37,373 nucleotides of DNA from Rhodobacterales bacterium CG2_30_65_12 (GTDB taxonomy: Bacteria > Pseudomonadota > Alphaproteobacteria > Rhodobacterales > Rhodobacteraceae). Below are positions 10,406-30,147 of the stretch, piece after piece. Each line of letters begins with the position of its first letter. The stretch's first letter is position 1. The stretch covers positions 1 through 37,373 of the forward strand of contig MNZL01000136.1 in the NCBI GenBank assembly GCA_001873585.1, written 5' to 3'. The position numbers were made by a program, and so were the translations under genes. Below the pieces are notes generated by a model. It worked only from the letters and a program-made list of their open reading frames with translations. It had not been told where the DNA came from and made no database searches.

Positions 10406-11281
10406 TCAGCCGCGCGAATAGTAGAGCGACACCACGTGTTCGGCTTCGGCAAAGAACAGCCAACGCGATGTAAAGACACCCGCGAGGTGGATCACCAGCA
10501 CGGCTATGGCCATCGGCATGCTGGCCGGCAGCAGCAGCAGCATGGCAACCGGAATCACCCCGATCAGCAGGGTGGCGATGATGCGCAGCTTCTGGCTGTG
10601 CTTGCGGCCGACGTGATACACCATCTCGTCGAGGATGTAGTTGCGCGCGGTGTGCGCAGTTTCAAACATCCGCACCTTGCCCACGGCCCCCAGGCCGGTG
10701 GCCGTGCCCTTGTCGGAGCCGGTGTCGAGGAGGCGCTTGTCGCCCATGATCCAGCCGGCCCATTGCAGCACGGTCACCAGCAGGATAAGCACACCGGCCA
10801 CCGTGGGCTGCATCGAGAGCAGCGCACCGCCGGCAATCGCGTAGGTGAGAAACAGCACCGGGTTGATCGCCATGTTCCAGCGCGGCACCGTCTTGAGCTG
10901 GGTGTAGATCATCGAGGTGGAAAACACCGTCAGCAGAGCCAGCGCGGCACCGACATAGCCAAACACCGGCAGGTTGAGCGCAAAGAAGATCCGCCCAATG
11001 GCGTAGACGGCGAAAACAAGCAGCGTGATCACCGCAAGCACGCCCTCGCGCGAGAGCCACGAGGTTTGCCACTGGCTGAACGCATAGATCGCGTTCTTCT
11101 TGTTGCCGAGGTGGAAGACCGACGAGAGCAGGCCGCCGACGCTGAGCGCATAGGCCATGAAGAACACGCCAAACGACGCCACGCCATAGAAATCGGGAAT
11201 GCCGAGCCCAAGCCACATCAAGAGCCCGAAGCCAAGGCCGGAGATCGAGGTGAAGATGATTACGGAGGGTGCCGGGTGCAT
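10406..11281 (-). CDS. soeC: Sulfite dehydrogenase membrane anchor subunit SoeC (DmsC family)
   Basis: Multiple hydrophobic helices; overlaps soeB stop and follows soeAB; DmsC-like. Confidence 0.88.
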   Translation of the reverse strand: MHPAPSVIIFTSISGLGFGLLMWLGLGIPDFYGVASFGVFFMAYALSVGGLLSSVFHLGNKKNAIYAFSQWQTSWLSREGVLAVITLLVFAVYAIGRIFFALNLPVFGYVGAALALLTVFSTSMIYTQLKTVPRWNMAINPVLFLTYAIAGGALLSMQPTVAGVLILLVTVLQWAGWIMGDKRLLDTGSDKGTATGLGAVGKVRMFETAHTARNYILDEMVYHVGRKHSQKLRIIATLLIGVIPVAMLLLLPASMPMAIAVLVIHLAGVFTSRWLFFAEAEHVVSLYYSRG

Positions 11282-12024
11282 CAGAGTCTCTCCAGTGCCT
11301 TGTCGAGCCAGCCGAGGAAGCCCGTGGGCTCTTCAGCGACGGTTTCGAGCGCCTTGGGCGGCGTTTTGTCGAGCGTGTCTTTCGGGCGCGGCGGCAGGTA
11401 TTTGTTGACGGGCCTGGTGCCCTGCTCGGGCATCAGGTCAAACCCGCCGCGCTCCGCGACCAGCTTGGAAACATCAGAGTCGGGATCGCCGAGATCCCCG
11501 AAGTGGCGCGCGCCCGCCGGGCAGGTGCGCACGCAGGCGGGCACACGGTCAACCTCGGGAATGTTGTCGTTGTAGATCCGATCAACGCAAAGCGTGCATT
11601 TTTTCATGATGCCCGCGTCACGATCAAGCTCCCGCGCGCCGTAAGGACAGGCCCAGGCGCAGAGGCCGCAGCCAATACAGCGATCTTCGTTGACCAGCAC
11701 GATCCCATCTTCGACGCGCTTGTAGCTCGCCCCGGTCGGGCAGACGGTCACGCAAGGCGCATCCTCGCAGTGCAGGCACGATTTGGGGAAGTGCACCGTT
11801 TGCGATGGGCCACCGTCCTTGGGCGCGATCTCGTAGTTGAACACGCGATTGAGGAAGGTGCCCTCCGGATCGGCGCCATATGGGTCGATATCCGACAGCG
11901 GCGCGCCGTAGTTCTGGGTGTTCCAGCCCTTGCAGGCGGTCACGCAGCCATGACAACCGACGCAGGTGTCGAGGTCGATCACCAGGCCGAGCTTTTTACG
12001 GGTTTCCTGTGGAAGCTTGGTCAT
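11281..12024 (-). CDS. soeB: Sulfite dehydrogenase Fe-S subunit SoeB
   Basis: Four 4Fe-4S Cys clusters: 'CVGCHGCVTACKGWN', 'CLHCEDAPCVTVCPTGA', 'CIGCGLCAWACPYGA', 'CTLCVDRI...CVRTCP'. Confidence 0.92.
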   Translation of the reverse strand: MTKLPQETRKKLGLVIDLDTCVGCHGCVTACKGWNTQNYGAPLSDIDPYGADPEGTFLNRVFNYEIAPKDGGPSQTVHFPKSCLHCEDAPCVTVCPTGASYKRVEDGIVLVNEDRCIGCGLCAWACPYGARELDRDAGIMKKCTLCVDRIYNDNIPEVDRVPACVRTCPAGARHFGDLGDPDSDVSKLVAERGGFDLMPEQGTRPVNKYLPPRPKDTLDKTPPKALETVAEEPTGFLGWLDKALERL

Positions 12025-14834
12025 CAGATCTTCCTCGCAACGACTTTGGGGCCCTTGCCGACCGGCGATTTGATCGGCGGGAAGACGGGCTGGGCCTCGC
12101 TCGGTTTCGGCACGGCCTTCTCCACCTTGACGCGCAAATCAAACCACGCCGCCTGACCAGTGACCGGATCGCTGTTGGACCAGCGCATGCCGTCGCCCTT
12201 TGGCGGTTGCAGCTCATGGATCAAATGGTTGAGCAGGAAGCCCTCGGTGGCCTCGGTGGCCTTTTCGTCGAGCGCCCAGGCGCCCTTGCGCTTGCCAATG
12301 GCATTCCATGTCCAGATCGTTTGGTCATTGAGGCCCTCGTGCAGCGCCACCGGCACCACGATCGACCCGTGCACCGAGCTTATCCGGGCATAATCGCCCT
12401 CCTCGAACCCTTGCTTTTCCCAGATCTTCTTCGGCAGATACATCGCGTTCTTGCCAGTGATCTGGCGCAGCCAGGCGTTTTGCGAGCCCCAGGAGTGATA
12501 CATCTGCATTGGCCGCTGGGTGAGCGCATGCACGTTGAACTCGCTCACGTCGACGTTGCTGTCTTCAAATGGCTCATACCAGATCGGCAGCGGGTCCATC
12601 GTGCGTTTGATGCGCTCGCGCAGGTTATCGGGCGGCTGGGTTTCGCCATGGCCCTCGGCGGCAAGCTGCATCTTGCGCAGCGGCTCGACGTAAAGGTTGA
12701 AGGCGTAGAATTGCGGTGAATCGTAGAGCCCGATCTCGACCGCCCAATCCTGATAGGCCTTGTTCCACGGCTTGTAGAATTGCGCCTCTTCGGGGATGTG
12801 GCCGATCCAGAAACCGCCATTGTCGATATAGGCCTGGATCTGGTTCGGGTTGGCCTCGCCACGGCCCGATTTCGAGCCGTCCTTGCCACGAAACCCCGAA
12901 AGCGGGCCGACGCCGGGGCGGCGTTCGTGGTTTTGGATGTAGTCGGCGTAATCGGCCCACTTCGCGTTGCCGTCTTCGTCGGTGAAGCCCGGCAGCTTCA
13001 TCCTGTTGGCAAGCTCGACCAGCACGTTCTGGAACGGGCGCACGTCACGATCCGGTTCAACCAGCGGCCAGCGGATGCTGTCGGCGGCGGCTTCGGCTTC
13101 GCAGATCGGCCGATCAAGCAACGAGATGCAATCGTAGCGCTCAAGATAGGTGGTGTCGGGCAGGATCAGATCGGCATAGGCCACCGTTTCCGAGCTGTAG
13201 GCGTCGGAGTAGATGATATGCGGGATCACATAATCGCCGTTCTCATCCTTGTCGGTAAGCATGCGGATCACGTCGCCCGTGTTCATCGACGAGTTCCACG
13301 CCATGTTGGCCATGTAGAGAAACAGCGTGTCGATCTTGTAGGGATCGCCGGCATGGGCGTTGGAAATGACCATGTGCATCATGCCGTGGGCCGAAAACGG
13401 GTTTTCCCAAGTGAAGGCCTTGTCGATCCGTTTGGCCTTGCCCTCGTCGTCGATCAGCAGGTGTTCCGGCCCGAGCGGGTAGCCCAGGTGCGGCCCGTCG
13501 AGCGGTTTGCCCGGGGTCACACCGGCATGCGGCCTGGGGTGCGCCTCGACCGGCTTGGGATAGGGCGGCTTGAAGCGGAAGCCGCCGGGCACCTCGACCG
13601 AGCCGAGCAGGATTTGCAGCACATGCAGCGCGCGGGCGGTCTGAAAGCCATTCGAGTGGGCCGAGATGCCGCGCATGGCATGAAAGCTGATCGGGCGGCC
13701 GATCATCTTGTCGTGCTTTTCGCCCTTCCAGTCGGTCCATTCCACATCAAGGCTGATCTCTTCCTCAAAGGCCACGCGGGCGAACTCTGCGGCGATGTTG
13801 CGGATCCGCTGCGCCGTGAGCCCACAGCGCTCGGCCACCGCCTCGGGCGCATACTCAGCCGAGAGATATTTCGCCGCCATGAGCTGAAATACGGTGCGGT
13901 TGCCGTCGTGGCTGGCCGCGAGATTGGCGATCACGCCGGGTTTGTCGAAGGCGTCCGCCTTGCCGGTGTTCTGGTCGATCACCAGCGGCTTGCCGTCTTT
14001 ATCGCGGATGAACAGGCCCTTTTGTGGCCCCTCCGCTTCGTTCACGATAAAGCCCGCATTGGTGTAGCGGCGCAGGTAGTCGAGATCGACCTTGCCGGAG
14101 CGGAACAGCTCGTGGACGATCGACAGGATCAAAAGCCCATCGGTGCCGGGGGTGATGCCCACCCAATCGTCGGCCACGGCGTTGTAGCCCGAGCGGATCG
14201 GGTTGATCCCCATCACCTTGCCGCCATGGCCCTTCATCTTGCCGATGCCGATCTTGATCGGGTTGCTATCGTGGTCTTCCGCAACGCCGAACAGCACGAA
14301 AAGCTTGGTGCGGTCCCAATCGGGCTGGCCAAATTCCCAGAACGCGCCGCCCATCGTATAGATCCCACCAGCGGCCATGTTGACCGAGCAGAAGCCGCCG
14401 TGCGCGGCGTGGTTGGGGGTGCCGTAGCTTTGGCCCCAGAATGCGGTAAAGCTCTGGCTCTGGTCGCGGCCAGTGAAGAAGGCGAGCTTTTTCGGGTCGG
14501 ACTCACGGATCGGTTCAAGCCAGCTCACCGCGATATCAAGCGCCTCGTCCCACGAGATTTCCTCAAACTCGCCCGAGCCGCGCGGGCCAACACGCTTGAG
14601 CGGCGCACGCAGGCGGCTCGGCGCGTAATGCTGCATGATCCCTGAAGATCCTTTGCCGCAGAGCACACCCTTGTTGACCGGGTGATCACGGTTGCCCTCG
14701 ATATAGGCCACCTGCCCATTCTTGAGGTGCACGTTGATGCCGCAGCGGCAGGCACACATGTAGCAGGTCGTCTTGCGGATCTCATCCGAAATGGGCGGCG
14801 ATGTCTCGATCTGGATGTTCTCGGGTCTCGTCAT
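12024..14834 (-). CDS. soeA: Sulfite dehydrogenase molybdopterin subunit SoeA
   Basis: 936 aa; N-terminal 'CYMCACRCGINVHLKNGQVAYIEGNRDHPVNKGVLCGKG' Fe-S motif; no Tat leader, consistent with a cytoplasmic SoeA; adjacent soeBC. Confidence 0.92.
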   Translation of the reverse strand: MTRPENIQIETSPPISDEIRKTTCYMCACRCGINVHLKNGQVAYIEGNRDHPVNKGVLCGKGSSGIMQHYAPSRLRAPLKRVGPRGSGEFEEISWDEALDIAVSWLEPIRESDPKKLAFFTGRDQSQSFTAFWGQSYGTPNHAAHGGFCSVNMAAGGIYTMGGAFWEFGQPDWDRTKLFVLFGVAEDHDSNPIKIGIGKMKGHGGKVMGINPIRSGYNAVADDWVGITPGTDGLLILSIVHELFRSGKVDLDYLRRYTNAGFIVNEAEGPQKGLFIRDKDGKPLVIDQNTGKADAFDKPGVIANLAASHDGNRTVFQLMAAKYLSAEYAPEAVAERCGLTAQRIRNIAAEFARVAFEEEISLDVEWTDWKGEKHDKMIGRPISFHAMRGISAHSNGFQTARALHVLQILLGSVEVPGGFRFKPPYPKPVEAHPRPHAGVTPGKPLDGPHLGYPLGPEHLLIDDEGKAKRIDKAFTWENPFSAHGMMHMVISNAHAGDPYKIDTLFLYMANMAWNSSMNTGDVIRMLTDKDENGDYVIPHIIYSDAYSSETVAYADLILPDTTYLERYDCISLLDRPICEAEAAADSIRWPLVEPDRDVRPFQNVLVELANRMKLPGFTDEDGNAKWADYADYIQNHERRPGVGPLSGFRGKDGSKSGRGEANPNQIQAYIDNGGFWIGHIPEEAQFYKPWNKAYQDWAVEIGLYDSPQFYAFNLYVEPLRKMQLAAEGHGETQPPDNLRERIKRTMDPLPIWYEPFEDSNVDVSEFNVHALTQRPMQMYHSWGSQNAWLRQITGKNAMYLPKKIWEKQGFEEGDYARISSVHGSIVVPVALHEGLNDQTIWTWNAIGKRKGAWALDEKATEATEGFLLNHLIHELQPPKGDGMRWSNSDPVTGQAAWFDLRVKVEKAVPKPSEAQPVFPPIKSPVGKGPKVVARKI

Positions 14835-15388: not shown

Positions 15389-15886
15389 GTGCTTGATGCT
15401 GGCGACAACACCAAAAAGATGACGCTGATCGTCACAAAGGGTACGCTCGACTGGGCCTATCCGCCCTTCATCCTGGGCACGACAGCAGCTGCCATGGACG
15501 TTGAAGTGACTATGTTTTTCACTTTCTACGGTCTACAGCTTTTGAAGAAAGACCTCGACCTGAAAGTGTCGACGCTGGGCAACCCGGCGATGCAGATGCC
15601 GATGGGCGGGATGCACATGTCGATGCCGAACATCATGCCGATGATTCCCGGGGTCGACCGGATGACAACGACGATGATGAAGAATCTGATCAAGAAAAAG
15701 GGCGTAGCCTCGATCGAGGATCTGCGCGAGGCCGCCGTCGACCTTGAAATCAAGATGATTGCCTGCCAAATGACGCTCGATCTGTTCGAGATCGACAAGA
15801 GCGAGCTCATCGACGAAATCGAGATCGGTGGCGCCGCAAGCTGGATGGAAGAAGCGGCTTCGTCTGATATCAACCTCTACCTCTGA
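15389..15886 (+). CDS. dsrE2: DsrE/F-like sulfur relay protein, DsrE2 type
   Basis: 'KKMTLIVTKGTLDWAYPPFILGTTAAAMDVEVTMFFTFYGLQLLKKDL...IKMIACQMTLDLFEI'; GTG start with upstream GGGAGG; immediately precedes tusA. Confidence 0.88.
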   Translation: MLDAGDNTKKMTLIVTKGTLDWAYPPFILGTTAAAMDVEVTMFFTFYGLQLLKKDLDLKVSTLGNPAMQMPMGGMHMSMPNIMPMIPGVDRMTTTMMKNLIKKKGVASIEDLREAAVDLEIKMIACQMTLDLFEIDKSELIDEIEIGGAASWMEEAASSDINLYL

Positions 15887-16217: not shown

Positions 16218-18188
16218 TCAGAGCGTGATGCGGAACCGCGCGAAGCCATCCGGCCCGTCGCCGGCGGGTTCGATCGCCACGCCCTTCACATCGGCGATGT
16301 AGTCCACCGCTTTCGGCCCGGTATCGAACAGCACCGTCGTGCCCGGCATCGGTGCGAAGGTCCAGTTGGCGTCGGCCGAGGGGTTGATCGTGCCCTGCTC
16401 GACGATGTAGCGCACGATCACGTCGCGGTTTGTGTCGGGCCCTTCAAAGATGATCGTATCGCCTGTGCCCGGGAAGTGGCCGCCACCGCCGGCGCGGTAG
16501 TTGTTGGTGGCCACAACGAACTCCATTTCGTCGGTCACCGGCGCGCCGTTGAAGGCGAGGTTCACGATCCGGTTGGCGCCTTCGTTGATCACGTTACCGT
16601 CGCGGTCAAACATCATCGGCTGCGAAAGGTCGATCTGGTAGGTCACGCCATCGACCACATCGAAATTGTAGGACGGAAAATCGGGGTTCAGCAGCACCTG
16701 CCCGGTTTCGCCCGGAGTGATCTGGTTGAACATCCCCGCCGAGCGCTCAAGCCAGCCCTTGAGCTGGGCCCCGGTGATCTTCACCGCGCGCACGGTGTTG
16801 GGGTAGAGGTAGAGATCGGCCACGTTCTTGATCGCCACGTCGCCCGCCGGCACGTCGGTGTAGTATTCCGGGCCACCCCGGCCGCCGGCCTTGAAGGGCG
16901 CCGCCGCCGACAGGATCGGCAGGGCTTCGTAGGCGGTGCCCCGCATCATCTGGGTGATATACCAAAGCTGCGCCTGGCTCACGATTTGCACGCTCGGATC
17001 ATCCGCGACCAGCGCGAAGTAGCTTTGCAGTGGCGCCGAGGTCTTGCCCACCGCCCGGCGTATGTAGGCGAGCGTTTCCGCATGCTCTTGTGCCACCGAA
17101 GCCTCGACCTCCGGCACACTTTCGACCGTTGCCAAGACCGACCGGTCTTCGCCCCGCAGATAGATCGGGCGCACTTCGCTGGCGTGGTTCACCACCCGCA
17201 CCTCGCCGCCCTCGAATGAGAGCATCAGGTCGATCACGCCCAGGTGCGAGCCCCAGAAGCCGCCCATCACCGCAGGCTTGCCGTGGATCGTGCCTCTGGT
17301 GGCATCGAGCCCATCCCAGCCTGCGTAATCGGCGCCGGGGAACACGAGGTGGGAGTGGCCCGTCATCAGCGCGTCGATCCCGTCGACCTCGGCCAGCGGC
17401 ACGGAGGCGTTTTCCATACCCTCTTGGTATTGCGCGCTACCGATGCCGGAATGGCTGAGCGCGATGACGATCTGCGCACCTGCTTCCTTCATCTGCGGCA
17501 CCCAGGCCTTCGCCGCTTCAACAATGTCGCGGGTAGTCACGTTGGCTTCGAGGTGGCGGCGATCCCAGGTCATGATCTGCGGCGGAACGAAGCCGATCAG
17601 GCCCACCTTCACCACATGCTCCTGCCCGGTGCCGTCGATCACCGTCTTCTCAAGGATCACGTAAGGCTTCACCAGCGTCTTGTCGGCGGTGGGGCTGGCG
17701 CCGGCTTCCGTGGCGACGTTGGCGCTCACCACCGGGAATGCGGCCCCGGCGAGCGACTTCACAAGGAAATCAAGCCCATAGTTGAACTCGTGATTGCCGA
17801 GCGTTGACGCTTCAAACCCTACGGTGTTCATCGCGGCGATCACCGGGTGCATATCACCCTCTTTCATCCCGCGCTCGTAAGCGATGTAATCGCCCATCGG
17901 GTTACCTTGCAGGAAATCGCCGTTGTCGACGAGCATGGCGTTGGTCGCCTCGGCGCGGATGGTGTTGATATGCGCCATGGTGCGGGCGAGCCCGACGGTG
18001 TCGATCGGTTTGTCGCTGTAGTAATCGTAAGGCATTACATGCACATGCAGATCGGTGGTTTCCATGATCCGCAGGTGCGCTTCGTTGCCGGCGGCACGCG
18101 CCGAGAATGGATGCAGCGCGATGAAAGACGCGCCGGCGACGCCGCCAAGAAAGCTGCGGCGGGTGGGCGAAAGGATGGACGATGACAT
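16218..18188 (-). CDS. cpdB: 2',3'-cyclic-nucleotide 2'-phosphodiesterase/3'-nucleotidase (CpdB-like, Tat-exported)
   Basis: 'LRIMETTDLHVHVMPYDYYSD...VDNGDFLQGNPMGDYIAYE...TLGNHEFNYGLDFL...GHSHLVFPG' metallophosphatase motifs; start at Met 18188 gives leader 'SPTRRSFLGGVAGASFIALHPFSARAAG'. Confidence 0.92.
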   Translation of the reverse strand: MSSSILSPTRRSFLGGVAGASFIALHPFSARAAGNEAHLRIMETTDLHVHVMPYDYYSDKPIDTVGLARTMAHINTIRAEATNAMLVDNGDFLQGNPMGDYIAYERGMKEGDMHPVIAAMNTVGFEASTLGNHEFNYGLDFLVKSLAGAAFPVVSANVATEAGASPTADKTLVKPYVILEKTVIDGTGQEHVVKVGLIGFVPPQIMTWDRRHLEANVTTRDIVEAAKAWVPQMKEAGAQIVIALSHSGIGSAQYQEGMENASVPLAEVDGIDALMTGHSHLVFPGADYAGWDGLDATRGTIHGKPAVMGGFWGSHLGVIDLMLSFEGGEVRVVNHASEVRPIYLRGEDRSVLATVESVPEVEASVAQEHAETLAYIRRAVGKTSAPLQSYFALVADDPSVQIVSQAQLWYITQMMRGTAYEALPILSAAAPFKAGGRGGPEYYTDVPAGDVAIKNVADLYLYPNTVRAVKITGAQLKGWLERSAGMFNQITPGETGQVLLNPDFPSYNFDVVDGVTYQIDLSQPMMFDRDGNVINEGANRIVNLAFNGAPVTDEMEFVVATNNYRAGGGGHFPGTGDTIIFEGPDTNRDVIVRYIVEQGTINPSADANWTFAPMPGTTVLFDTGPKAVDYIADVKGVAIEPAGDGPDGFARFRITL

Positions 18189-18275
18189 GAGAGCCTCCAC
18201 GAAGTCAGACGGCTCAATGCTACGCCCAAGTTGTGTCGCTGGCGCGACAATTTTTACCAATCGGCCAGACTCTGC

Positions 18276-19649
18276 CTAAGCGGTCGTGCCCCTGTTGGCC
18301 CGCACGAAATCCACGAACCGGGACACCCAGTTATCGGCGCGGGTGGCGCGCAGGTGGCAAAAACCGGCAAGCGTTTTGTGCACCACGATGCCGTCACTGT
18401 TGCCATCCACGCCATGACCGCGCGTCATGTCGCGCCCATAACGCGGTGTCCCGTCGAGCGCTTTCAGCCGGGCATAATGGAACTCGTGCGCGCGGATCGT
18501 GCCGCCTGCGCCCGGCCAGGGATGATCGGCGCGCTCGGTGAACCGGATAAGCCCCTTGCCCTCGGGGCGCGGGTGCATCACCGCCTCACCCGGCACCACA
18601 CCCACCATCAGCCCCGCCGCCGCCTCAGCGACGATGGCGCGCGAGAGATACATCAGCCCGCCGCATTCGGCGTAAGCCGGCAGGCCGGCCTCGATCTTTA
18701 CCCGGATGTCGGCGCGCAGCGGGGCGTTGGCCGAAAGCTCGGGCACAAACATCTCGGGAAAGCCGCCGCCAATGAAAAGCCCGTCGCATAGGGGCAGAGC
18801 CGGATCGGCCATCGCATCGAAGGGCACAAGCCGGGCACCCTGCGCCGCAAATTCTTCAAGATCGTCGGGATAGTAGAAGCCGAAAGCGCGATCTCGGGCA
18901 TAGGCGATGGTCACGTCTGGGGGGGGCACCGGCGCGGGCGCGGGCGGATCGGGCAGGTCGTCCGCCTGCCCTGCGAGGTCCAGCAGCAGGTCAAGATCGA
19001 CCGAGCCGCCGACGACCTCCCCCAGCCTTGAGATCAGCGCATCAAGCTCGCCGGTTTCGGCCGGGGTGGTCAGGCCAAGGTGGCGCTCGCCGATTTCCAG
19101 CGCGCTGTTGCGGTGCACCGCGCCAACCACCACGAGATCGGTATAGGTTTCCACCGCCTGGCGCAGCTTTTGCTCGTGGCGGGGGCCACCGACCTTGTTG
19201 AGGATCACGCCGACGATAGTCACCTCGGGGTCAAACGCCCGGTAACCTTGCAGGAGCGGCGCGATCCCGCGCGTCATCCCGTTCGTGTCGATCACCAGGA
19301 TCACCGGCAGGCCGAGGAGCTTGGCAATGGCGGCGTTGGAATCGGTGCCGTCCATCGCCACCCCGTCAAACAGCCCCTTGTTGGCCTCCACCAGCGCGAG
19401 GTCATGCCCAGCCGCGCGGGAGGTGAAGAAGCTGGCGATTTCGTCCGGGGCCTGGGTGTTGAAGTCGAGGTTGTAGCATGGGCCCCCGGTGGCCGCGCTC
19501 AGCCACATCGGGTCGATGTAATCGGGCCCCTTCTTGAAGGCGGCAAGCGAAAGCCCGCGCGCGGCAAGCGCGCGGGCGAGCCCGGTGGAAACAACCGTCT
19601 TGCCGGAAGATTTGTGCGCGGCGGCGATCAGAAACCGCGGCGCGCGCAT
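18276..19649 (-). CDS. dsrN: DsrN: cobyrinate a,c-diamide synthase-like glutamine amidotransferase (siroheme amidation)
   Basis: CbiA-like 'FLIAAAHKSSGKTVVSTGLARALAARGLSLAAFKKGPDYIDPMW' and GATase 'GLPAYAECGGLMYLSRAI'; position at the end of the dsr operon. Confidence 0.88.
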   Translation of the reverse strand: MRAPRFLIAAAHKSSGKTVVSTGLARALAARGLSLAAFKKGPDYIDPMWLSAATGGPCYNLDFNTQAPDEIASFFTSRAAGHDLALVEANKGLFDGVAMDGTDSNAAIAKLLGLPVILVIDTNGMTRGIAPLLQGYRAFDPEVTIVGVILNKVGGPRHEQKLRQAVETYTDLVVVGAVHRNSALEIGERHLGLTTPAETGELDALISRLGEVVGGSVDLDLLLDLAGQADDLPDPPAPAPVPPPDVTIAYARDRAFGFYYPDDLEEFAAQGARLVPFDAMADPALPLCDGLFIGGGFPEMFVPELSANAPLRADIRVKIEAGLPAYAECGGLMYLSRAIVAEAAAGLMVGVVPGEAVMHPRPEGKGLIRFTERADHPWPGAGGTIRAHEFHYARLKALDGTPRYGRDMTRGHGVDGNSDGIVVHKTLAGFCHLRATRADNWVSRFVDFVRANRGTTA

Positions 19650-20686
19650 CAGGCGCTGACCGGCAGCTTCGAGGTATCGCGCGCCGCCCAGATTTTGCCG
19701 GCAAGCGCCTGGGCCTCGTCCATCGTCGCGGCCTTGTCGTGGGTCTTGAGCGCGATCGCCATGGTGCCGACGATTGCCTCTCGGGCATATTCATCTTCGT
19801 CCTGCCCGCGCCAAACCTTCATCAGCCGGGCCAGTTGCATCTCTTCGTCGGGCGGGGCATGGCCGTCGTCAAGCGTGGCAGGCCATTCCTCGATGTGAAG
19901 CTCGGTGGCGCCATGCGTTGTCCAGACCGGGGTGGGCTTGTTGGGCCGGCGCTCAATCTCGCCGCCGTCGCCCCGAAACACCGCCGCGTTCTCGATGCCG
20001 AGAAGCTGGGCCGCGCCGGAGTGAATATCCATGAAACCGCGATGGAAGATACCCTGCATGACCGTGTGTGCGTTGAACGGGTTGAGCATCCGGGTAAAGC
20101 TGTGCACTGGGCTGCGCAGGCCGAGCAGAGGCCGCAGGTTGATAAGCTCGCGCAAGCTCGGGCTCAGCACTTCGAGCGGCACATAGGCAAAGCCCTGCGC
20201 CTCGATCTCGTCGGCGGCCATTTGCAGGCTGTCACAAACCGGCAAGCCAAGGTGGGTGAGCACGTCGCGGGTGTAAACCCGGCCGGGCGTATGGCCCTCG
20301 GTGCCGTGCATGAACACCTTGTAGCCCGCCCCCACCAGCGCCATCACGCCGAGCAGATACCACGGCAGTTGCACCCGCTTGCCGGCGTAGGACGACCAAT
20401 CGAAATCCACCGCCGGGAGTCTCGTGGGCAAATTGAAGGTATCGCGCGCACCAATGGCGAAGCCAGCGATCTCTTCCGGGGCTTCTTCCTTGAGCCGCAG
20501 CAGCATCAGGAAAGCACCGATCTGCTCGGGCTCGGCCTCGCCGCGCAGGATCATTGCCATGCTTTCGCGGCTTTCCTCCAGCGTGAGGTGGCGCTGCTTG
20601 GTCTTGCCCCGCCCGAGGATCGCAACGAAGCGCGAAAACGGGTGCGGGTGGTTCGGGTCGAGCACCCGGGTTGGCTGGTCTTTCAT
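19649..20686 (-). CDS. TrpD2/YbiB-like anthranilate phosphoribosyltransferase-fold protein
   Basis: 'MKDQPTRVLDPNHPHPFSRFVAILGRGKTKQRHLTLEESRESMAMILRGEAEPEQIGAFLMLLRLKEEAPEEIAGF' is the TrpD-type N-domain; 'YAGKRVQLPWYLLGVMALVGAGYKVFMHGTEG' replaces the PRPP-binding GTGGD region. Start reassigned to 20686; stop overlaps dsrN start (TGATG). Confidence 0.85.
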   Translation of the reverse strand: MKDQPTRVLDPNHPHPFSRFVAILGRGKTKQRHLTLEESRESMAMILRGEAEPEQIGAFLMLLRLKEEAPEEIAGFAIGARDTFNLPTRLPAVDFDWSSYAGKRVQLPWYLLGVMALVGAGYKVFMHGTEGHTPGRVYTRDVLTHLGLPVCDSLQMAADEIEAQGFAYVPLEVLSPSLRELINLRPLLGLRSPVHSFTRMLNPFNAHTVMQGIFHRGFMDIHSGAAQLLGIENAAVFRGDGGEIERRPNKPTPVWTTHGATELHIEEWPATLDDGHAPPDEEMQLARLMKVWRGQDEDEYAREAIVGTMAIALKTHDKAATMDEAQALAGKIWAARDTSKLPVSA

Positions 20687-20705: not shown

Positions 20706-21905
20706 TCAGCCTTTGGCGGCCAGATTGCCGTCAGACAGGTTTGTCGGCAGCACCCGGAGCACCTTGGCCCCGACGCCCGCCGCGAACAGCGCCAGCGCCA
20801 CGCCGCCAAGCCCCAACATAAGCTCCCAGATCGACGGCGTGTAGGGGCTCACCACACCTTCGTGGAAGCCCTCGATCACCTCGTAGCCGGGAAAGATTTC
20901 GAGCGGATAGGCCTGGCCACCAATCACGATCACGTAGACCTGGGCAAAGCCGCCGATCACCACGAGGATCGAAGCAAGAATGGTGGAGGAGCGCGACGGG
21001 TTGAGAAACACCAGCGCGATCGGGATCAGCCCGCCGAGCATCACCTGCACACCCCAGAACAGCATCGTGTAAATGCCGCCATCCATCAGGATGAAGCGCT
21101 CATACCCGCCGTGCTCGGTGGCGTAGAGGTTGGTGAGGTGGAAGACGAGCGCAAAATAGAGCACCGCCGAGGCAAAGACACCGAGCAGCCGACCAAGGCG
21201 CTTGAGTAGCTCTTCCCCGAAGATCCGATCATTGAGCTTCAACAGGGTGAGGGTAACAAGGATGAAGATCGCCAGCCCGAACGAGAAGCTCATGATGATG
21301 AACATCGGCGCCATGATCGCGGCGTCATAGCCGGGGCGGGCAACGAGCCAGCCGAAGATCGAGCCGGTGCCGGTGGTGAGCGCGAGACGCCAAAGAAAGG
21401 CGACGAAGCCGGCGAAGCGCACCCACTTGTAATCAAGAGCCCGCATCATCTGGGTCACGAGATACACCGCCACCACGGCGACGAAGCCATTATAGAGCAG
21501 CACGTTCCAGGCGAAGACAGAGCTGAAATTGTAGGTGGTCATCGCCACGATCAGCCGGTCAGCCCGGCCAAGATCGAGCACCACGATGGCAAGGCCGCCC
21601 ACCAGCAGGGTGATCGCCAGAAGCGACGAAAACCGGCCCATCGGCTTGTAGGCTTTCTCGCCAAAGACCGAGCCGATCGAGGCCACGTTGAGCGCGCCAG
21701 AGGCGGCGACGATCAGGAAGATCGCAAACACATGCGGCAGGCCCCAGACAATCTGGTTGGTCATCCCGGTCACGGCGTGGCCGTGATGCTCCATGTAGAA
21801 CCAGGCCCCGCCAGCGGCGGCGAGAAACGCCAACAGCAGCGCGGCGATTTGCCAGACGCCGGGCGTTGCCTTGAGTTCACGATAGATCGTCTGTTCCATT
21901 GCCAT
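20706..21905 (-). CDS. dsrP: DsrP, NrfD/PsrC-family integral membrane subunit
   Basis: Multiple TM helices, NrfD-like; located between dsrO and dsrN-linked genes as in other dsr operons. Confidence 0.92.
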   Translation of the reverse strand: MAMEQTIYRELKATPGVWQIAALLLAFLAAAGGAWFYMEHHGHAVTGMTNQIVWGLPHVFAIFLIVAASGALNVASIGSVFGEKAYKPMGRFSSLLAITLLVGGLAIVVLDLGRADRLIVAMTTYNFSSVFAWNVLLYNGFVAVVAVYLVTQMMRALDYKWVRFAGFVAFLWRLALTTGTGSIFGWLVARPGYDAAIMAPMFIIMSFSFGLAIFILVTLTLLKLNDRIFGEELLKRLGRLLGVFASAVLYFALVFHLTNLYATEHGGYERFILMDGGIYTMLFWGVQVMLGGLIPIALVFLNPSRSSTILASILVVIGGFAQVYVIVIGGQAYPLEIFPGYEVIEGFHEGVVSPYTPSIWELMLGLGGVALALFAAGVGAKVLRVLPTNLSDGNLAAKG

Positions 21906-21917
21906 GGTGGTTCCCCG

Positions 21918-22670
21918 TCAGAGGTTCGTGTAGCGCACGCCCGGATCAAGCTCCAGGTCGGCACGCAGGGCGACCGAATCGTAGTCATTGAGCGCCTTCG
22001 AGATCGCGCTGTCGGGATCCTTGAGATCGCCGAACAGAATCGCCGAATGGCCGGCCTTTTCGCAGGCTTCAACGCAGGCTGGAATGCGGCCCGAATCAAT
22101 ACGCGGTGCGCAGAGGTTGCAGCTTTCTACCGTGCCCTTGCCGCGCGGGGCTTGAACATTCTGATCCGTGATCTCGGCATGCACAAAGCTGCGCGCCTTG
22201 AAGGGGCACGCCATCATGCAGTAGCGGCAGCCGATGCAGATGTGCTTGTCGACCAGCACGATCCCGTCTTCGCGCTTCATCGAGGCGCCGGTGGGGCAGA
22301 CATCAACGCAGGGCGGGGCTTCGCAATGTTGGCACATCACCGGGGCCGAAACCTCGCGCCCGGTGGACGTGTCGCGCAACGTGACCTTGCGAATCCATTC
22401 CGGCGCCTGCTCCGGGTCGATCTGTTCCAACTCGGTCTGCGACCCCCAGCCGTTTTCAACCTTGCAGGCGGTCACGCAATCGTTGCAGTCGGCGGCGCAT
22501 TTGGAAGCGTCGATCAGGAGGCCCCAGCGCTTGCCAGCGTCGGCGCGCGATGACGCCTCGGCGGTGCCGCCGAAGGCCATCAGGGTGACGCCCGGCGCGA
22601 GCGTGAGGGTTGAGGCCGCCGCGCCGGATTTCAGGATATCGCGGCGGGTCATTTCGGCGCGGTTGGTCAT
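21918..22670 (-). CDS. dsrO: DsrO, Tat-exported periplasmic ferredoxin
   Basis: Leader 'MTRRDILKSGAAASTLTLAPGVTL'; Cys clusters 'CAADCNDCVTACK', 'CQHCEAPPCVDVCPTGA', 'CIGCRYCMMACPFKA', 'CNLCAPR...CVEACEKAG'. Start reassigned to 22670. Confidence 0.93.
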   Translation of the reverse strand: MTNRAEMTRRDILKSGAAASTLTLAPGVTLMAFGGTAEASSRADAGKRWGLLIDASKCAADCNDCVTACKVENGWGSQTELEQIDPEQAPEWIRKVTLRDTSTGREVSAPVMCQHCEAPPCVDVCPTGASMKREDGIVLVDKHICIGCRYCMMACPFKARSFVHAEITDQNVQAPRGKGTVESCNLCAPRIDSGRIPACVEACEKAGHSAILFGDLKDPDSAISKALNDYDSVALRADLELDPGVRYTNL

Positions 22671-23134
22671 TTGTTCATCTCCTGCGCGACCCGAGAGAGA
22701 TAGGCGTCGATCGAGTTCGCCTCGTCCGGTTTGGCCATCGTGCGCAGCGCAAGCCCGCTTTCGTTCGGCGGCGTCGAACGGTGGCAGGTGAAGCAATCAA
22801 TCGTCACCGCCGCATAGTCGTGGCAGGCGCGGCAAAAATGGCGCTCGTCGTCGAAGCTGACGAAGCTTCCGGCCTCGTCCTTCACGGCGTGGCAGGTGAA
22901 ACATTCACCAATCGAAGCCTGGATCGCCAGATCATCGGGCGCAAGATCGCGCACCCCTTCACGCATGGTCAGGTCACGGTCATGCCTGAGCATGTCCATG
23001 TGATGAACGCGCCAATAGTCGTTGCCTTCGGGGTGGGGGTCACCGACTGCGGCGGGCACGACGGGACCAGTCCCGTCGGCCGCCGCACCCCCGGCGAAAC
23101 CAATTACGGCAAGGAAAGCGAAAACGAGCCGCAT
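22667..23134 (-). CDS. dsrJ: DsrJ, triheme cytochrome c
   Basis: Signal-like N-terminus MRLVFAFLAVIGFAGGAAA, exactly three CxxCH motifs (CFTCH, CRACH, CFTCH); start reassigned to 23134; 4-nt overlap with dsrO. Confidence 0.9.
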   Translation of the reverse strand: MRLVFAFLAVIGFAGGAAADGTGPVVPAAVGDPHPEGNDYWRVHHMDMLRHDRDLTMREGVRDLAPDDLAIQASIGECFTCHAVKDEAGSFVSFDDERHFCRACHDYAAVTIDCFTCHRSTPPNESGLALRTMAKPDEANSIDAYLSRVAQEMNK

Positions 23135-23136
23135 GG

Positions 23137-25089
23137 TCACTCCCCGAGACCCATCTTGATGTAGCCGGTCGGGCAAACGTCGGCGCAGATGTGGCAGCCG
23201 ATGCACCTGGTGTAATCGGTATCAACGTAGCGGCCCACCGCGCGTTCGGCTTTCGGCACACGGAACACCGCATCCTGCGGGCAGAAGATCACGCAGTTGT
23301 CGCACTCGAAGCAAAGGCCGCAGGACATGCAGCGCTCGCCCTCTTTCTGGGCCTGCTGCTCGCTGAAGCCAATGATCCGCTCCTCGAAGTTGCCGAGCAC
23401 CGCATCGCCAACAATGTCGAGCGCACCCCGCTCTTCTCGTGGCTCGAAATTGAAGTGCCCCTTGAACAGCTCGGTATGCGGAATGATCTGGCTGTTCGAG
23501 CGATCTTCGAAGTTGTGGATTGCCCACTTGGCCGAGGAGGTTCCCGCGATCTGTTCGTGCGGGTAGTCTGCCGGATCTCTGCCGCGCTGGTGCAGCTCTT
23601 CCATCAGGTTCCAGTGGTGCACGTCGACCTTGGGGCGCTTGTGCACTTCGCCGTCGTCGAGGAAATCGGTGATCGTTTCCGCTGCGATGCGGCCATGGCC
23701 GATGGCGGTGGTCAGCAGGTGAGGGCGGATGATATCGCCGCCGACAAAGTGCTTTTCACGGTCTTTGACCTGGTAGGTCGGGGTAGCGTCGATAAAGCCA
23801 CGGCCGTTGTCGAGATCGTCAAGCCCGTTACCGAGATCGCCCATCTGGCCGATGGCGGCGATGATGATATCGGCTTCGAGGGTGAACTCGGTGCCTTCGA
23901 TCGGCTCCGGTGCGTTGCCCTTCATCGTGCATTCACACATTTTCAGGCCAGTAGCGATGCCTTTTTCATTACGGATCACCTCAAGCGGCATCACCCCACC
24001 CTTGATGTCGATGCCTTCGCGCTTGGCATCTTCGCGTTCGTGCTCCGCGGCAGTCATCTGCTCAACGGGGAACAGCGAGGTGAGCGTGGCTGCAACCCCG
24101 GCGCGGGTGAGCAGACCGGCAGAATCATGCGCGGTCCAGTCGATCACTGTGCCGTCCGGGTGCTCTGACGGTTTGACCTCGGTGATGTTGCCGAGGCGAC
24201 GCGCAACCGAGGCGACGTCGATCGAGGTGTCGCCGCCACCGACGACGACCACCTTCTTGGCAGTGCCGAGCACCCAGCCCTTGTTGAACGCATCGAGGAA
24301 CTCGATGCCATTGATGCAGTTTTCGGTGCCGTCCCAGCCCGGGATTGGCAGCGGACGGCCCTGTTGCGCACCGAGCGCCCAGAACACCGCATCGAACGCC
24401 TTGTCGAGTTCGTTCATCGAAACGTCGGTGCCAACGCGGGTGTTGGTGTGCACATCGACGCCCATCTCGATGATCCGGCCGATTTCCTTGTCGAGCATGT
24501 CGCGCGGGGTCCGATAGCCCGGGATGCCGTAGCGCATCATCCCGCCCAGCTCTTCGTTGGCTTCAAACAGGGTCACGGCGTGACCGTCGAGGCGCAGGAA
24601 GTAGGCTGCCGAAAGGCCGGCGGGGCCGCCGCCGATCACGGCCACCTTGCGCCCGGTATCGGCGCCCGGCTCGCCCATCTTGATGCCATTGGCGTTGGCC
24701 CAGTCGCCCACATACTGCTCGACGCCATTGATGCCAACGTAATCGTCAACCTCGTTACGGTTGCAGCCCGCTTCACAGGGTGCGGGGCAGACGCGGCCCA
24801 TCGTGGCCGGAAACGGGTTGGCCTCGACCATCGAGTGAAAGGCGTATTCCTGCCACGCCATGCCCTCAACCGGCGGCTTGTCCATACCGCGCGCGATCGC
24901 CAGCCAGCCACGGATGTTGTGGCCCGACGGGCACGAGCCCTGGCATGGCGGCGTCTTGTGAACATAAGTCGGGCACTTGTGGCTGTGGTCGGCCTGGAAG
25001 ATCTTTTCGTTCAGCTCCCATTCCGCCGCCATTTCACCCTCTTCAAAGCGCCGGAAAGTCGGCTTGGTGTTCGGGTCCATATCGTTCAT
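23137..25089 (-). CDS. dsrL: DsrL, Fe-S flavoprotein NAD(P)H oxidoreductase (GltD-like)
   Basis: 'VAVIGGGPAGLSAAYFLRLDGHAVTLFE', 'VVVVGGGDTSIDVASVARRLG' and C-terminal ferredoxin 'CMSCGLCFECDNCVIFCP...CIGCHICADVCPTGYIKMG'. Confidence 0.93.
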   Translation of the reverse strand: MNDMDPNTKPTFRRFEEGEMAAEWELNEKIFQADHSHKCPTYVHKTPPCQGSCPSGHNIRGWLAIARGMDKPPVEGMAWQEYAFHSMVEANPFPATMGRVCPAPCEAGCNRNEVDDYVGINGVEQYVGDWANANGIKMGEPGADTGRKVAVIGGGPAGLSAAYFLRLDGHAVTLFEANEELGGMMRYGIPGYRTPRDMLDKEIGRIIEMGVDVHTNTRVGTDVSMNELDKAFDAVFWALGAQQGRPLPIPGWDGTENCINGIEFLDAFNKGWVLGTAKKVVVVGGGDTSIDVASVARRLGNITEVKPSEHPDGTVIDWTAHDSAGLLTRAGVAATLTSLFPVEQMTAAEHEREDAKREGIDIKGGVMPLEVIRNEKGIATGLKMCECTMKGNAPEPIEGTEFTLEADIIIAAIGQMGDLGNGLDDLDNGRGFIDATPTYQVKDREKHFVGGDIIRPHLLTTAIGHGRIAAETITDFLDDGEVHKRPKVDVHHWNLMEELHQRGRDPADYPHEQIAGTSSAKWAIHNFEDRSNSQIIPHTELFKGHFNFEPREERGALDIVGDAVLGNFEERIIGFSEQQAQKEGERCMSCGLCFECDNCVIFCPQDAVFRVPKAERAVGRYVDTDYTRCIGCHICADVCPTGYIKMGLGE

Positions 25090-25110
25090 AAGCTGGTCCT
25101 CCCTTGCGCC

Positions 25111-26628
25111 TTATTCGGCGGCATCGTCTTCTGTTTTCTGGCCATCGAGGATGATCGCGTTCGATACCAGCTGGTGCACCGAAACGATCGAGTCCATGTC
25201 GTAGCCATATTTCGGCATCACCTTGGAAAACTGCGTTTTGCAAATCGCGCAGATCGCCGCCATGTGGGTCACGCCATGCTGCTCGGTCGATTGCTGCAAC
25301 GCGGTCATCCGGGGTGCGGCTCCCTTGATGCGCAGATCCATCAGATCGTCGGTGAGCAGGCCGCCGCCACCACCACAGCACAGGGTGCTCTCGTGGATGG
25401 TGTCTTGCTCCATGTCGACGAAATTGTTGCAGACCGCCTTGATCACATTGCGCGGAATCTCGAACTGGCCACCGGGCATGTCGCCCATGCGCGAGCCACG
25501 GGCAACGTTGCAGCTATCGTGGAACGTAACCGTCATGTGGTCATTACGGGTTTTGTCGAGCGTGAGGTTGCCCTGCTGAATTTCATTCCAGGTAAATTCG
25601 AGAATGTGCTGCGGCACCGGGTAATTCGGATCGAGAAAATCCCAGGGGCCCGCGAGCGTGTTGAGGAACGAATAGGCGACGCGCCAGGCATGGCCACATT
25701 CACCAAAGATGATGCGCTTCACGCCGAGATCGAGCGCGGCCTTGCGGATGCGCTGACTGACCAGGCGCATGTTTTCATAATTGCCGATGAACAGGCCGAA
25801 GTTGGCCGCTTCCGAGGCGTAGGAGCTGAGCGTCCAGCTCACACCGGTCTGGTGGAACACCTTGGCATAACCGATGAGGCCGTCGATATGCGGCTCGGCG
25901 AAGAAATCGGCCGAGGGGGTCACGAGCAGGATGTCGGCGCCCTTCTCGTCGATCGGGATGCGCACAGACACGCCGGTATCGTCTTCGATATCCTCTTCGA
26001 GGTCTTCGAGGGTCGCCCTCAGCGCCTTGGGGTTGAGCCCAAGGTTGTTGCCGACGGTGTGAACCTTGCCGATGATCTCGTTGGAATATTTCATCCCGAT
26101 GCCGACAGCATCGAGGATGTCGCGCGCGGCCATGGTGATCTCGGCGGTGTCGATCCCGTAAGGGCAGAACACCGAGCAACGGCGGCACTCCGAGCACTGG
26201 TGGTAATAGGAATACCACTCCATGAGCACGTCTTCGGTAAGGTCACGCGCGCCGACGAGCCAGGGGAAATATTTGCCTGCGAAGGTAAAGTAGCGGCGAT
26301 AAACCGAGCGCAGCAGGTCTTGCCGGGCCACTGGCATGTTTTTCGGGTCGGCGGTGCCGAGAAAATAGTGGCACTTGTCGGTGCAGGCACCGCATTTCAC
26401 GCAGATATCGAGATAAACCTGGAAGGCGCGGTTTTTCCCCGCGAGCTCTTCCATCTTGGCCAGCGCCCTTTCCTTCCAGTCGGGCACCAGCTCGCCCGGA
26501 AAGCCGAGCGCCTTGTTATGCTCGGGTGAGGCGAGGAACGGCTGGAGGCCTTCCATCGCGCCCGGCTTGATGCACGGTGTCGCGGTCGGATAGGCGAGCT
26601 TGGGAACCTGGGTGTCGCCGTCAGCCAT
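25111..26628 (-). CDS. dsrK: DsrK, HdrD-like catalytic Fe-S subunit
   Basis: 'CVKCGACTDKCHYF', 'CSECRRCSVFCPYGID' and CCG-type motif 'TLCCGGGGGLLTDDLMDLRIKGA'. Confidence 0.94.
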   Translation of the reverse strand: MADGDTQVPKLAYPTATPCIKPGAMEGLQPFLASPEHNKALGFPGELVPDWKERALAKMEELAGKNRAFQVYLDICVKCGACTDKCHYFLGTADPKNMPVARQDLLRSVYRRYFTFAGKYFPWLVGARDLTEDVLMEWYSYYHQCSECRRCSVFCPYGIDTAEITMAARDILDAVGIGMKYSNEIIGKVHTVGNNLGLNPKALRATLEDLEEDIEDDTGVSVRIPIDEKGADILLVTPSADFFAEPHIDGLIGYAKVFHQTGVSWTLSSYASEAANFGLFIGNYENMRLVSQRIRKAALDLGVKRIIFGECGHAWRVAYSFLNTLAGPWDFLDPNYPVPQHILEFTWNEIQQGNLTLDKTRNDHMTVTFHDSCNVARGSRMGDMPGGQFEIPRNVIKAVCNNFVDMEQDTIHESTLCCGGGGGLLTDDLMDLRIKGAAPRMTALQQSTEQHGVTHMAAICAICKTQFSKVMPKYGYDMDSIVSVHQLVSNAIILDGQKTEDDAAE

Positions 26629-26631
26629 GGA

Positions 26632-27357
26632 TCACTTCTCCAGTTCGGCCGCCCAAGGGGCGATGTGGCGCTGTTCGCGCGGGTTGTCGACCTGGTTGCG
26701 CGAGGGGCTGAAAAACAGGCCCGGCGCATGCAGGAGCTTCGAGATCGGGAAGATGATCATCAGGGTGATCACCAGCGCGAGATGAACAAGGATCACCAGA
26801 TCGCTCGGCAGGGTGCCGATACGGAAGGTCCAGAGCCCCGACATGAACACCTTGACGGCGACAACATCGGTGTGAGCGACGAATTTCATCATCAGGCCCG
26901 ACAGGCCGATGGCCACGATCAGGGCAAGGATCAGGTGATCGGACGGGTTCGAGATGTAGCGAACGCGATCGACCAGAAAGCGGCGCGCCCAGAGGCCAAG
27001 CAGGCCCAGCACCATGGCGAAACCGGCATATTTGCCAAACGGCTGAAGGAAGTCGAGCAGCCAGGGCGTGTTGCCGGGAATGGTGTAGCGCAAGTGCCGG
27101 ATGATCACGAGCCACAAAGCCATGTGGAAGGTCCAGCCAAACAGCCAGATCCACTTGTTCGATTTGAACAGGCTTTCGAAAAAGATCACCTCGCGCGCCA
27201 TCCGCAGCACCACGCCGGATTGTGTGGTGGGGGCTGGGGTGGTCGGGATTTTCAGGGGTGCGGGCGTCACTGCATACTTGCGGATCTTCGCCGCGACACC
27301 GACGACGAGCAGCGCCGTCGCCATATAGAACAGCAATGCGTAGATCGTGGACAGCAC
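26632..27357 (-). CDS. dsrM: DsrM, NarI-like membrane cytochrome b
   Basis: Hydrophobic helices with His residues ('FHMALWLVIIRHLRY'); GTG start at 27357 (VLSTIYALLFYMATALLVVGV); adjacent dsrK. Confidence 0.9.
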   Translation of the reverse strand: MLSTIYALLFYMATALLVVGVAAKIRKYAVTPAPLKIPTTPAPTTQSGVVLRMAREVIFFESLFKSNKWIWLFGWTFHMALWLVIIRHLRYTIPGNTPWLLDFLQPFGKYAGFAMVLGLLGLWARRFLVDRVRYISNPSDHLILALIVAIGLSGLMMKFVAHTDVVAVKVFMSGLWTFRIGTLPSDLVILVHLALVITLMIIFPISKLLHAPGLFFSPSRNQVDNPREQRHIAPWAAELEK

Positions 27358-27420
27358 GCGGACTCCTCCCCTGGTTTGCCCGGAAGGTCTTGCTTCAGGG
27401 CATCGGCAGATTTTCTGGAT

Positions 27421-27451
27421 GCTCTGACGGCCGACGTGACGCCGCCAGAGC
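27421..27451 (-). promoter_or_regulatory. Stem-loop in the dsrC-dsrM intergenic region
   Basis: Minus-strand RNA: GCUCUGGCGGC - GUCACGUCG - GCCGUCAGAGC, 11-bp stem with one G-U pair, between dsrC stop and dsrM start. Confidence 0.6.
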
Positions 27452-27470
27452 ACAGTTTCGGATTTGCGGA

Positions 27471-27803
27471 TCAGACGCAGCCGGTCGGCTTGGGCAGGCC
27501 GGCGATCTTGCAGGCCTGTTTCGCCGGACCGTAGGGAAACAGCTCGTACATGTACTTGTTGTTGCCCTTGTCGGGACCCATCGACTTCTTCGCCGCCTTG
27601 ATGAGCACGCGGACGGCCGGGGCGATCTGATACTCTTCGTAGTAGTCGCGCAGAAAGTTCACCACTTCCCAGCGGTCATCGGTCATCTCCAGCTCCTCGT
27701 TCTTGGCGATTATTTCCGCCAGTTCCGGGGACCATTCCGAGAGGTTGGTGATGTAGCCTTCTTCGTCGCAGGCAACGGACTGACCGTTCACTTCGTATGC
27801 CAT
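27471..27803 (-). CDS. dsrC: DsrC sulfur carrier protein
   Basis: C-terminus 'ACKIAGLPKPTGCV' with CX10C arm; 'DEEGYITNLSEWSPELAEIIAKNE'. Confidence 0.97.
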   Translation of the reverse strand: MAYEVNGQSVACDEEGYITNLSEWSPELAEIIAKNEELEMTDDRWEVVNFLRDYYEEYQIAPAVRVLIKAAKKSMGPDKGNNKYMYELFPYGPAKQACKIAGLPKPTGCV

Positions 27804-27833
27804 CGTTCGCTTTCCTTCAGTTTGCTTCTTGCT

Positions 27834-28142
27834 TCAGAGCCAGGCTTGCGTGCGGTCGTGCTTGGCGACCAGGGCCACAAACCCATCGTAGTCGACACCC
27901 TCGATCCCGTCGATAAGACGATCAGCGTCGAACCCGCGCGCCGCGAGATCGGGCGACAACACATAGAGCGACACGTTGTTGCCGAACTCTTCAATGATTT
28001 CGGTCAAACCAGTGCCGCCAAGCCCGCCATAAACGCCGTCTTCAATCATGAGAACAGCATCGCCGGCCTTGGCATGGTTCAGGCAGCTCACGAGCGCCTG
28101 GGTGGCGAAGGGCGATTTGTTTACCGTGTGAAGCGTAGACAT
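27834..28142 (-). CDS. dsrH: DsrH (TusB-like) sulfur relay subunit
   Basis: 'MSTLHTVNKSPFATQALVSCLNHAKAGDAVLMIEDGVYG'. Confidence 0.93.
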   Translation of the reverse strand: MSTLHTVNKSPFATQALVSCLNHAKAGDAVLMIEDGVYGGLGGTGLTEIIEEFGNNVSLYVLSPDLAARGFDADRLIDGIEGVDYDGFVALVAKHDRTQAWL

Positions 28143-28155
28143 TTCTTCCCCTCCC

Positions 28156-28563
28156 TCAGAAGCTCAGCACGACGTCGGCGTCGGCCATGACGTCGGCCAT
28201 TTCAGCCCGGCTGATAACGTGGATCGCGGGTTTCTCCGCCCAATCGTCATCCTCGTCTTCATAAACGATCTCCATGAGATCGTCCTCGCTGAGCCCCCGT
28301 TCTTCCAGGCTTTCGCGCTCGACGAACAGCTTCTGCACGTCGTAATCGCCAAGGGCCCGGAACGTCGGCGAGAAATTCTTCACGCCGATCCCGTCGGTAT
28401 TCTGGCCGTTGGTGAGCTGGAACACCCCATCATCCACGAACGCCAGAGACACATCCTGCTCGAAAGCGGCGCCGATCAGGACCACCTCGAGGCTTTCAAG
28501 GGCGTAGATCGTGCCGTAGGGCGCGCGGCGGTTCAGGTAGAGGAACTTTTTCACATCAGACAT
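28156..28563 (-). CDS. dsrF: DsrF (TusC-like) sulfur relay subunit
   Basis: 'KKFLYLNRRAPYGTIYALESLEVVLIGAAFEQDVSLAFVDDGVFQL'. Confidence 0.93.
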   Translation of the reverse strand: MSDVKKFLYLNRRAPYGTIYALESLEVVLIGAAFEQDVSLAFVDDGVFQLTNGQNTDGIGVKNFSPTFRALGDYDVQKLFVERESLEERGLSEDDLMEIVYEDEDDDWAEKPAIHVISRAEMADVMADADVVLSF

Positions 28564-28577
28564 TCTCGCTCCTCCCG

Positions 28578-28970: not shown

Positions 28971-28994
28971 TTCTTTTCCCCTCCCCTGGAAATC

Positions 28995-30077: not shown

Positions 30078-30147
30078 GCTTTTCCTCCCAACCCACGCCG
30101 CCCTTGGGCGGTCGCGGGACCAGTTAAACTTTGATGGTCGGCGTCGA

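Follow-up and report, generated by a model that had tools for sequence, protein, structure and literature searches.

The complete sulfur-oxidising dsr operon of Rhodobacterales bacterium CG2_30_65_12 raises the question of why a gene with the fold of the tryptophan biosynthesis enzyme TrpD is embedded in it. This gene, called T here, lies between dsrP and dsrN on contig MNZL01000136.1 (assembly GCA_001873585.1), and the whole stretch of 37,373 nucleotides analysed is referred to as the window; it belongs to a metagenome-assembled genome (MAG) that is 73.6% complete. To our knowledge, the route of siroheme and its insertion into nitrite and sulfite reductases are poorly understood, and no dedicated carrier has been established. 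In the limited collection of literature searched, no link between TrpD2 proteins and siroheme, or between trpD and dsrN, was found. Here, we report that T, judged from its sequence, is a member of the uncharacterised TrpD2 subfamily NF006564/PRK09071 and neither a TrpD nor a YbiB orthologue. We tentatively propose that it may be a TrpD2-type protein without catalytic activity that assists the siroheme pathway; it would buffer or deliver siroheme and would not be specific to Dsr or DsrN. Such a handling or delivery role is favoured over a role in sensing.

A TrpD-fold gene coupled to dsrN

The gene and its direct neighbours are arranged as follows:

20706 to 21905, minus strand: dsrP, NrfD-like membrane subunit, upstream of T
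19649 to 20686, minus strand: T, TrpD2-superfamily gene of 345 amino acids, subfamily NF006564/PRK09071 (by the NF006564 model, Pfam and an AlphaFold2 model)
18276 to 19649, minus strand: dsrN, CobB/CbiA-type amidotransferase, whose start overlaps the T stop

The minus-strand reading frame of T is intact and extends from an ATG at 20686 to a TGA at 19651-19649. It begins 19 bp after the stop of dsrP, whose last base is 20706, and its own stop codon shares one base with the start of dsrN (TGATG, 19651-19647); a first reading of the letters alone (the sequence-only reading) had given the coordinates, the gap and the overlap correctly. T reaches 372.5 bits with the NF006564/PRK09071 model ("glycosyl transferase family protein", cut-off 257), whereas it stays below the cut-offs of the YbiB equivalog NF006005 (114 bits, cut-off 185) and of the trpD model (70 bits, cut-off 199). 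The only Pfam matches are Glycos_trans_3N and Glycos_transf_3. An AlphaFold2 model built with 45 relatives as input (pLDDT 93.5) has YbiB as its nearest solved fold (TMt 0.83-0.85 to 7y3p, 8bfr and 4muo), followed by TrpD (0.76-0.81). Model and alignment together thus give a TrpD fold that lacks the loop binding phosphoribosyl pyrophosphate (PRPP), as in the TrpD2 superfamily. The description of T as "TrpD2/YbiB-like" consequently stands at the level of the superfamily and falls for YbiB itself, orthology to which is ruled out by the score under the NF006005 cut-off. The signature of NF006564 is present in T (D96, Y100-A-G-K/R, P108-W109, HG, R199, NP, H215 and GGExE), and the closest relative found is from Sinisalibacter aestuarii, with 86% identity. 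TrpD identity is ruled out by the motifs (the PRPP loop, the KHGN lysine and the DE metal motif) together with the model scores, in agreement with the earlier view that tryptophan biosynthesis is unlikely. No trpD above the cut-off was found in the source genome, which is uninformative because the genome is incomplete.

A further TrpD-like relative is NF005635/PRK07394 ("hypothetical protein"), with which T shares 81 bits, far under the cut-off of 287; 1 of 14 control genomes had a protein above that cut-off. Frames of 489-891 amino acids at four T loci (L063, L072, L074 and L117) were considered as fusions and are taken as upstream frame extensions instead, because the neighbouring genes overlap on the opposite strand. 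The isoelectric point was also considered as a sign of nucleic-acid binding and is uninformative (5.9 for T, 6.4 for YbiB).

Siroheme genes around the family

The neighbourhood survey that the sequence-only reading had proposed supports an association with siroheme genes. Of 399 Pseudomonadota genomes, 56 have a protein that passes the NF006564 cut-off. Regions of about 19 kb around T from 55 genomes, together with the window (56 loci), were compared with 40 distant regions of the same genomes; orthologs were called by tblastn and hidden Markov model thresholds with a simple gene caller, and cysG, nirB, cysI, dsrAB and dsrN were counted as siroheme genes. At least one of these lies near T in 36 of the 56 loci, compared to one of the 40 random regions (Fisher p 8e-11), and the difference persists when genera are collapsed (17/30 vs. 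1/20, p 2e-4). The enrichment concerns cysG, nirB and the dsr genes. The suggestion that the protein serves siroheme enzymes is therefore supported in a family-wide form, and not in the form of a partner of DsrN in siroamide maturation.

Four contexts recur, namely dsrP-T-dsrN, nirBD-nasA-T/cysG, T-cysG, and tusBCDE-T near cysG. The first was found at 80 named genome loci in Rhodobacterales, Hyphomicrobiales, Rhodospirillales, Chromatiales and Thiotrichaceae, with an extra reading frame between T and dsrN in some Thiotrichaceae. Of 51 dsr-type loci of Alpha- and Gammaproteobacteria, 42 have a T stop that either overlaps the start of dsrN (20 loci) or is separated from it by no more than 7 bp, which argues against chance as the cause of the coupling. 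The tie to siroheme nitrite reductase clusters, which the sequence-only reading had mentioned, is real: annotated plasmid records of Sulfitobacter and Ponticoccus have the order nirB-nirD-nasA-T-cysG, and in Catenovulum cobA-nirBD lies close to nasA-T. T comes directly after tusE in Pseudomonas-like genomes, where cysG is close by on the opposite strand. Over all contexts cysG occurs in every orientation relative to T (downstream or upstream on the same strand, divergent and convergent). In a tree of 127 proteins the contexts fall on separate branches: the nas members form three groups, a further group is mainly tus, and a dsr group has cysG-only members nested in it. A second TrpD2 group, below the cut-off, was seen in one family with many small MAGs (L090, L091 and others), and no siroheme genes were found near it in the two members examined (L090 and L091).

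Since the contexts share siroheme, through its synthase, nitrite reductase and the siroamide-containing DsrAB, an accessory factor is the simplest reading. Sulfur relay is common to the dsr and tus contexts and absent from nas, and molybdenum belongs to nas only. It is nevertheless conceivable that T takes part in sulfur-relay biology (TusBCDE / DsrEFH-DsrC), for instance as an RNA- or TusE-binding protein, and that the proximity of siroheme genes is secondary. The position directly downstream of tusE in Pseudomonas-like and other genomes, the homology of DsrC of the dsr operons to TusE, and a few loci with tus genes and no cysG (L048, L050, L063, L067 and L183) are consistent with this. However, all three nas groups pair T with nasA, nirB or cysG where relay genes are absent, and in Rhodoblastus and Roseiarcus T accompanies cysG without relay genes, which makes this explanation improbable.

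The arrangement in the window could also mean that T is a specific partner of DsrN, whose proposed role is the amidation of siroheme to siroamide (PMC10504309). Such a partnership would fit the order dsrP-T-dsrN, which is conserved in Alpha- and Gammaproteobacteria together with frames that overlap or almost do so. What speaks against it is the fate of T where the operon has been lost, for which the wider gene order of the window is needed:

32969 to 34420, plus strand: cysG, siroheme synthase, divergent from dsrA (NF007922, 567 bits)
21918 to 31425, minus strand: the other dsr operon genes dsrA, B, E, F, H, C, M, K, L, J and O (NCBIfam dsrA, dsrB, DsrK, DsrM and DsrO; gene calls)
16218 to 18260, minus strand: cpdB-like 2',3'-cyclic-nucleotide phosphodiesterase gene, directly after dsrN, still adjoining T in Maritimibacter after loss of dsr

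The operon thus extends on the minus strand from dsrA (31425) down to dsrN (18276). Ten genomes with T beside cysG have no dsrA above the cut-off (Maritimibacter, Mesobacterium, Roseiarcus, Rhodoblastus and MAGs). In Roseiarcus fermentans (L158, 9312-11390) a fragment of dsrP (residues 157-369 of 399), an intact T, a fragment of dsrN (372-450 of 457) and an intact cysG follow each other, and a Rhizobiales MAG (L162, 5478-6893) has shorter remnants (dsrP 326-383 and dsrN 115-154) around an intact T, followed by an intact cysG; both genomes lack dsrA. Only T and cysG are left at the loci of Rhodoblastus (L164) and of two Proteobacteria MAGs (L157 and L161), with their matches 26 bp apart, and the genome of L161 still has dsrA elsewhere. 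Four Maritimibacter loci (L110, L112, L116 and L146) show cysG-T-cpdB, the order of the window minus the dsr operon and dsrN, in the absence of dsrA, and their T is under purifying selection (dN/dS 0.12-0.17). As T outlives the dsr genes, it is selected for a role that needs neither DsrAB nor DsrN. T as a Dsr-specific component is ruled out by these genomes without dsrA and by the remnants that flank an intact T, and across genomes T does not co-occur with dsrA as a Dsr component should. A role of T in siroamide maturation with DsrN, which the sequence-only reading had put forward, is largely refuted for the family: most members have no dsrN, T persists beside dsrN remnants in two loci and at sites without dsr genes in the vicinity, and the majority of genomes with dsrA have no T. 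We regard it as very improbable.

Several other genes of the window lie near the dsr region. A molybdopterin oxidoreductase gene (936 amino acids) with iron-sulfur and membrane subunit genes (10406-14834, minus strand) resembles SoeABC sulfite dehydrogenase, a name given from context, without an equivalog match. A gene for the sulfur carrier DsrE2 (15389-15886, plus strand) and one for an ApbC/Mrp-type iron-sulfur cluster carrier (9239-10381, minus strand) are also present.

A retained arginine-lined groove

The residues of T that line the former active site are encoded as follows:

20351 to 20401, minus strand: signature loop D96..Y100-A-G-K-R..P108-W109..L112 at the position of the PRPP loop, holding R104, the equivalent of YbiB R92; kept across the dsr, cysG, tus and nas clades
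20279 to 20308, minus strand: H127-G128 (from the TrpD KHGN motif) to R136, the equivalent of YbiB R123 (by alignment)
20132 to 20134, minus strand: R185, the equivalent of the anthranilate-binding R164 of Sulfolobus solfataricus TrpD (phmmer alignment to 1gxb)
19943 to 19972, minus strand: motif G239xGGExERxP248, in which E245 is the Glu of the TrpD Mg-binding DE motif and the Asp is lost

Alignment to E. coli TrpD and YbiB confirms that the GTGGD loop of TrpD is replaced in T, where residues 98-112 read SSYAGKRVQLPWYLL, as had been noted from the letters. The alignments to the S. solfataricus and E. coli enzymes further show that T, although it shares the TrpD fold, has lost K106 and D223 in addition to the loop, whereas the active-site residues H107, R164 and E224 have equivalents in H127, R185 and E245. 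The fold and these retained residues might be taken to indicate an active phosphoribosyltransferase with a new acceptor; since the entire PRPP loop, K106 and D223 are replaced in all clades, we give this explanation hardly any credence. T rather looks like a dead phosphoribosyltransferase with a retained basic, arginine-lined groove, which may bind a polyanion. At the column of R185, Arg or Lys occurs throughout the dsr, cysG and tus members and in most of the nas members. R136 is invariant in the dsr (50/50), cysG-adjacent (11/11) and tus (16/16) members and in two of the three nas groups, and the equivalents of both YbiB arginines, R104 and R136, are kept over the same range.

YbiB of E. coli and Salmonella, the founding member of TrpD2, likewise has its GTGGD loop replaced by a loop of the PSYxG type, and most T clades have conserved its R92 and R123 as R104 and R136. 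Mutants show that these two arginines bind DNA and the acidic tail of ObgE (PMC10123104). However, YbiB and T have only about 20% identity, D96, K103, P108-W109, R199 and GGExE are specific to T, and ybiB lies in a LexA-regulated operon with the helicase gene dinG and without siroheme genes nearby (PMC5445326; PMC10123104). In E. coli, ybiB (L103, 4249-9001) is also some 2-3 kb from ybiX, encoding a PKHD hydroxylase, and fiu, encoding a catecholate receptor.

The binding properties of YbiB lead to the main alternative, namely that T may be a sensor or regulator: its TrpD2 domain would bind a ligand, interact with nucleic acids or proteins and control the expression of siroheme-enzyme operons. 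A related clade in Agrobacterium, Azospirillum, Cereibacter and Pannonibacter speaks for this, as its TrpD2 domain branches within the T tree, where it is the sister group of the nas clade of Rhodobacterales (SH-aLRT 88), and is fused to an N-terminal LysR-type helix-turn-helix (HTH, PF00126) beside siderophore ABC transporters and TonB receptors. The HTH was identified by Pfam in four of these proteins (L099, 6533-7990; L096, 6551-8071; L097, 6551-8044; L098, 6629-8056), and the fusion possibly represents an undescribed transcription-factor architecture. Two further putative fusions of about 500 amino acids (L076 and L083) share the siderophore context, and the fusion gene of Azospirillum (L098) has genes for a TonB siderophore receptor and an Fe2+-dependent dioxygenase as neighbours, a likeness to the ybiB setting that may be coincidence. 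The cyanobacterial CnaT (all0601 of Anabaena/Nostoc PCC 7120), which we take to be a TrpD-like protein, is a further argument for regulation. Expression of the nirA operon is reported to be positively regulated by cnaT (PMC9430850, citing Frias 2003), so that the effect described is one on expression. Yet T itself has no HTH, the binding by YbiB is sequence-independent, and T is translationally coupled to enzymes in mid-operon, in the manner of a structural gene. The HTH-fused clade also lacks the AGKR, R136, R185 and GGExE features of T, and its ligand therefore probably differs. A sensing role is thus possible, and we consider it rather doubtful.

A candidate helper of siroheme enzymes

For the favoured role in handling or delivery, the following mechanism can be envisaged. 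The cleft that holds anthranilate and PRPP in TrpD would in T bind a polyanion, most simply siroheme or its octacarboxylate precursor, or else an acidic partner protein. T might then buffer siroheme or carry it to apo-reductases, NirB and DsrAB among them; the source would be CysG or, in organisms that make siroamide, DsrN. Through the translational coupling to dsrN, nasA or cysG, the dose of T would be matched to the enzyme that is served.

A number of observations weigh against this proposal. T is missing from 47 of the 52 dsrA-bearing genomes sampled (in the class of the window, 5 of 6 have it), the association of T with dsrA across genomes is absent (odds ratio 0.6), and most cysG-bearing genomes of the phylum sample have no T, so that T is dispensable for siroheme enzymes generally. 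In 20 of the 56 T loci the region contains no siroheme gene, some of these being next to tusBCDE only, and both samples are phylogenetically structured. The equivalent of R136 is lost in the alphaproteobacterial nas clade, as it is in the HTH-fused clade. Furthermore, cysG and dsrA are transcribed divergently in the window, as they are in other alphaproteobacterial dsr clusters, and because removal of the operon leaves cysG beside T, the divergent cysG-T pairs of Alphaproteobacteria probably arose by dsr deletion and not independently. These pairs were discounted as independent evidence of association, and the nas and same-strand cysG arrangements were counted. The N-terminal domain of CysG is more common in genomes with T (48/56) than in others (181/343), a difference that lineage confounds. 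In one dsrA-bearing alphaproteobacterium (G191), T is on a separate contig (L051), far from any siroheme gene, with dsrA in L228.

A wider proposal, which we consider unlikely but worth stating, is that the NF006564 TrpD2 proteins could form an unrecognised class of (siro)tetrapyrrole-binding proteins. Their dead cleft would act as a carrier or sensor of siroheme or sirohydrochlorin in nitrite reduction, sulfur oxidation of the sulfite reductase type and siroheme synthesis, and the LysR-HTH fusions would use this domain in transcription factors for iron uptake. For annotation, genes of this kind should not be read as TrpD or as glycosyl transferases. As a family that tracks siroheme genes through three metabolisms and outlives the dsr operon, NF006564 is a concrete candidate for a siroheme helper, and the TrpD2 superfamily, known mainly from YbiB of E. 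coli, would gain a testable role beyond DNA binding.
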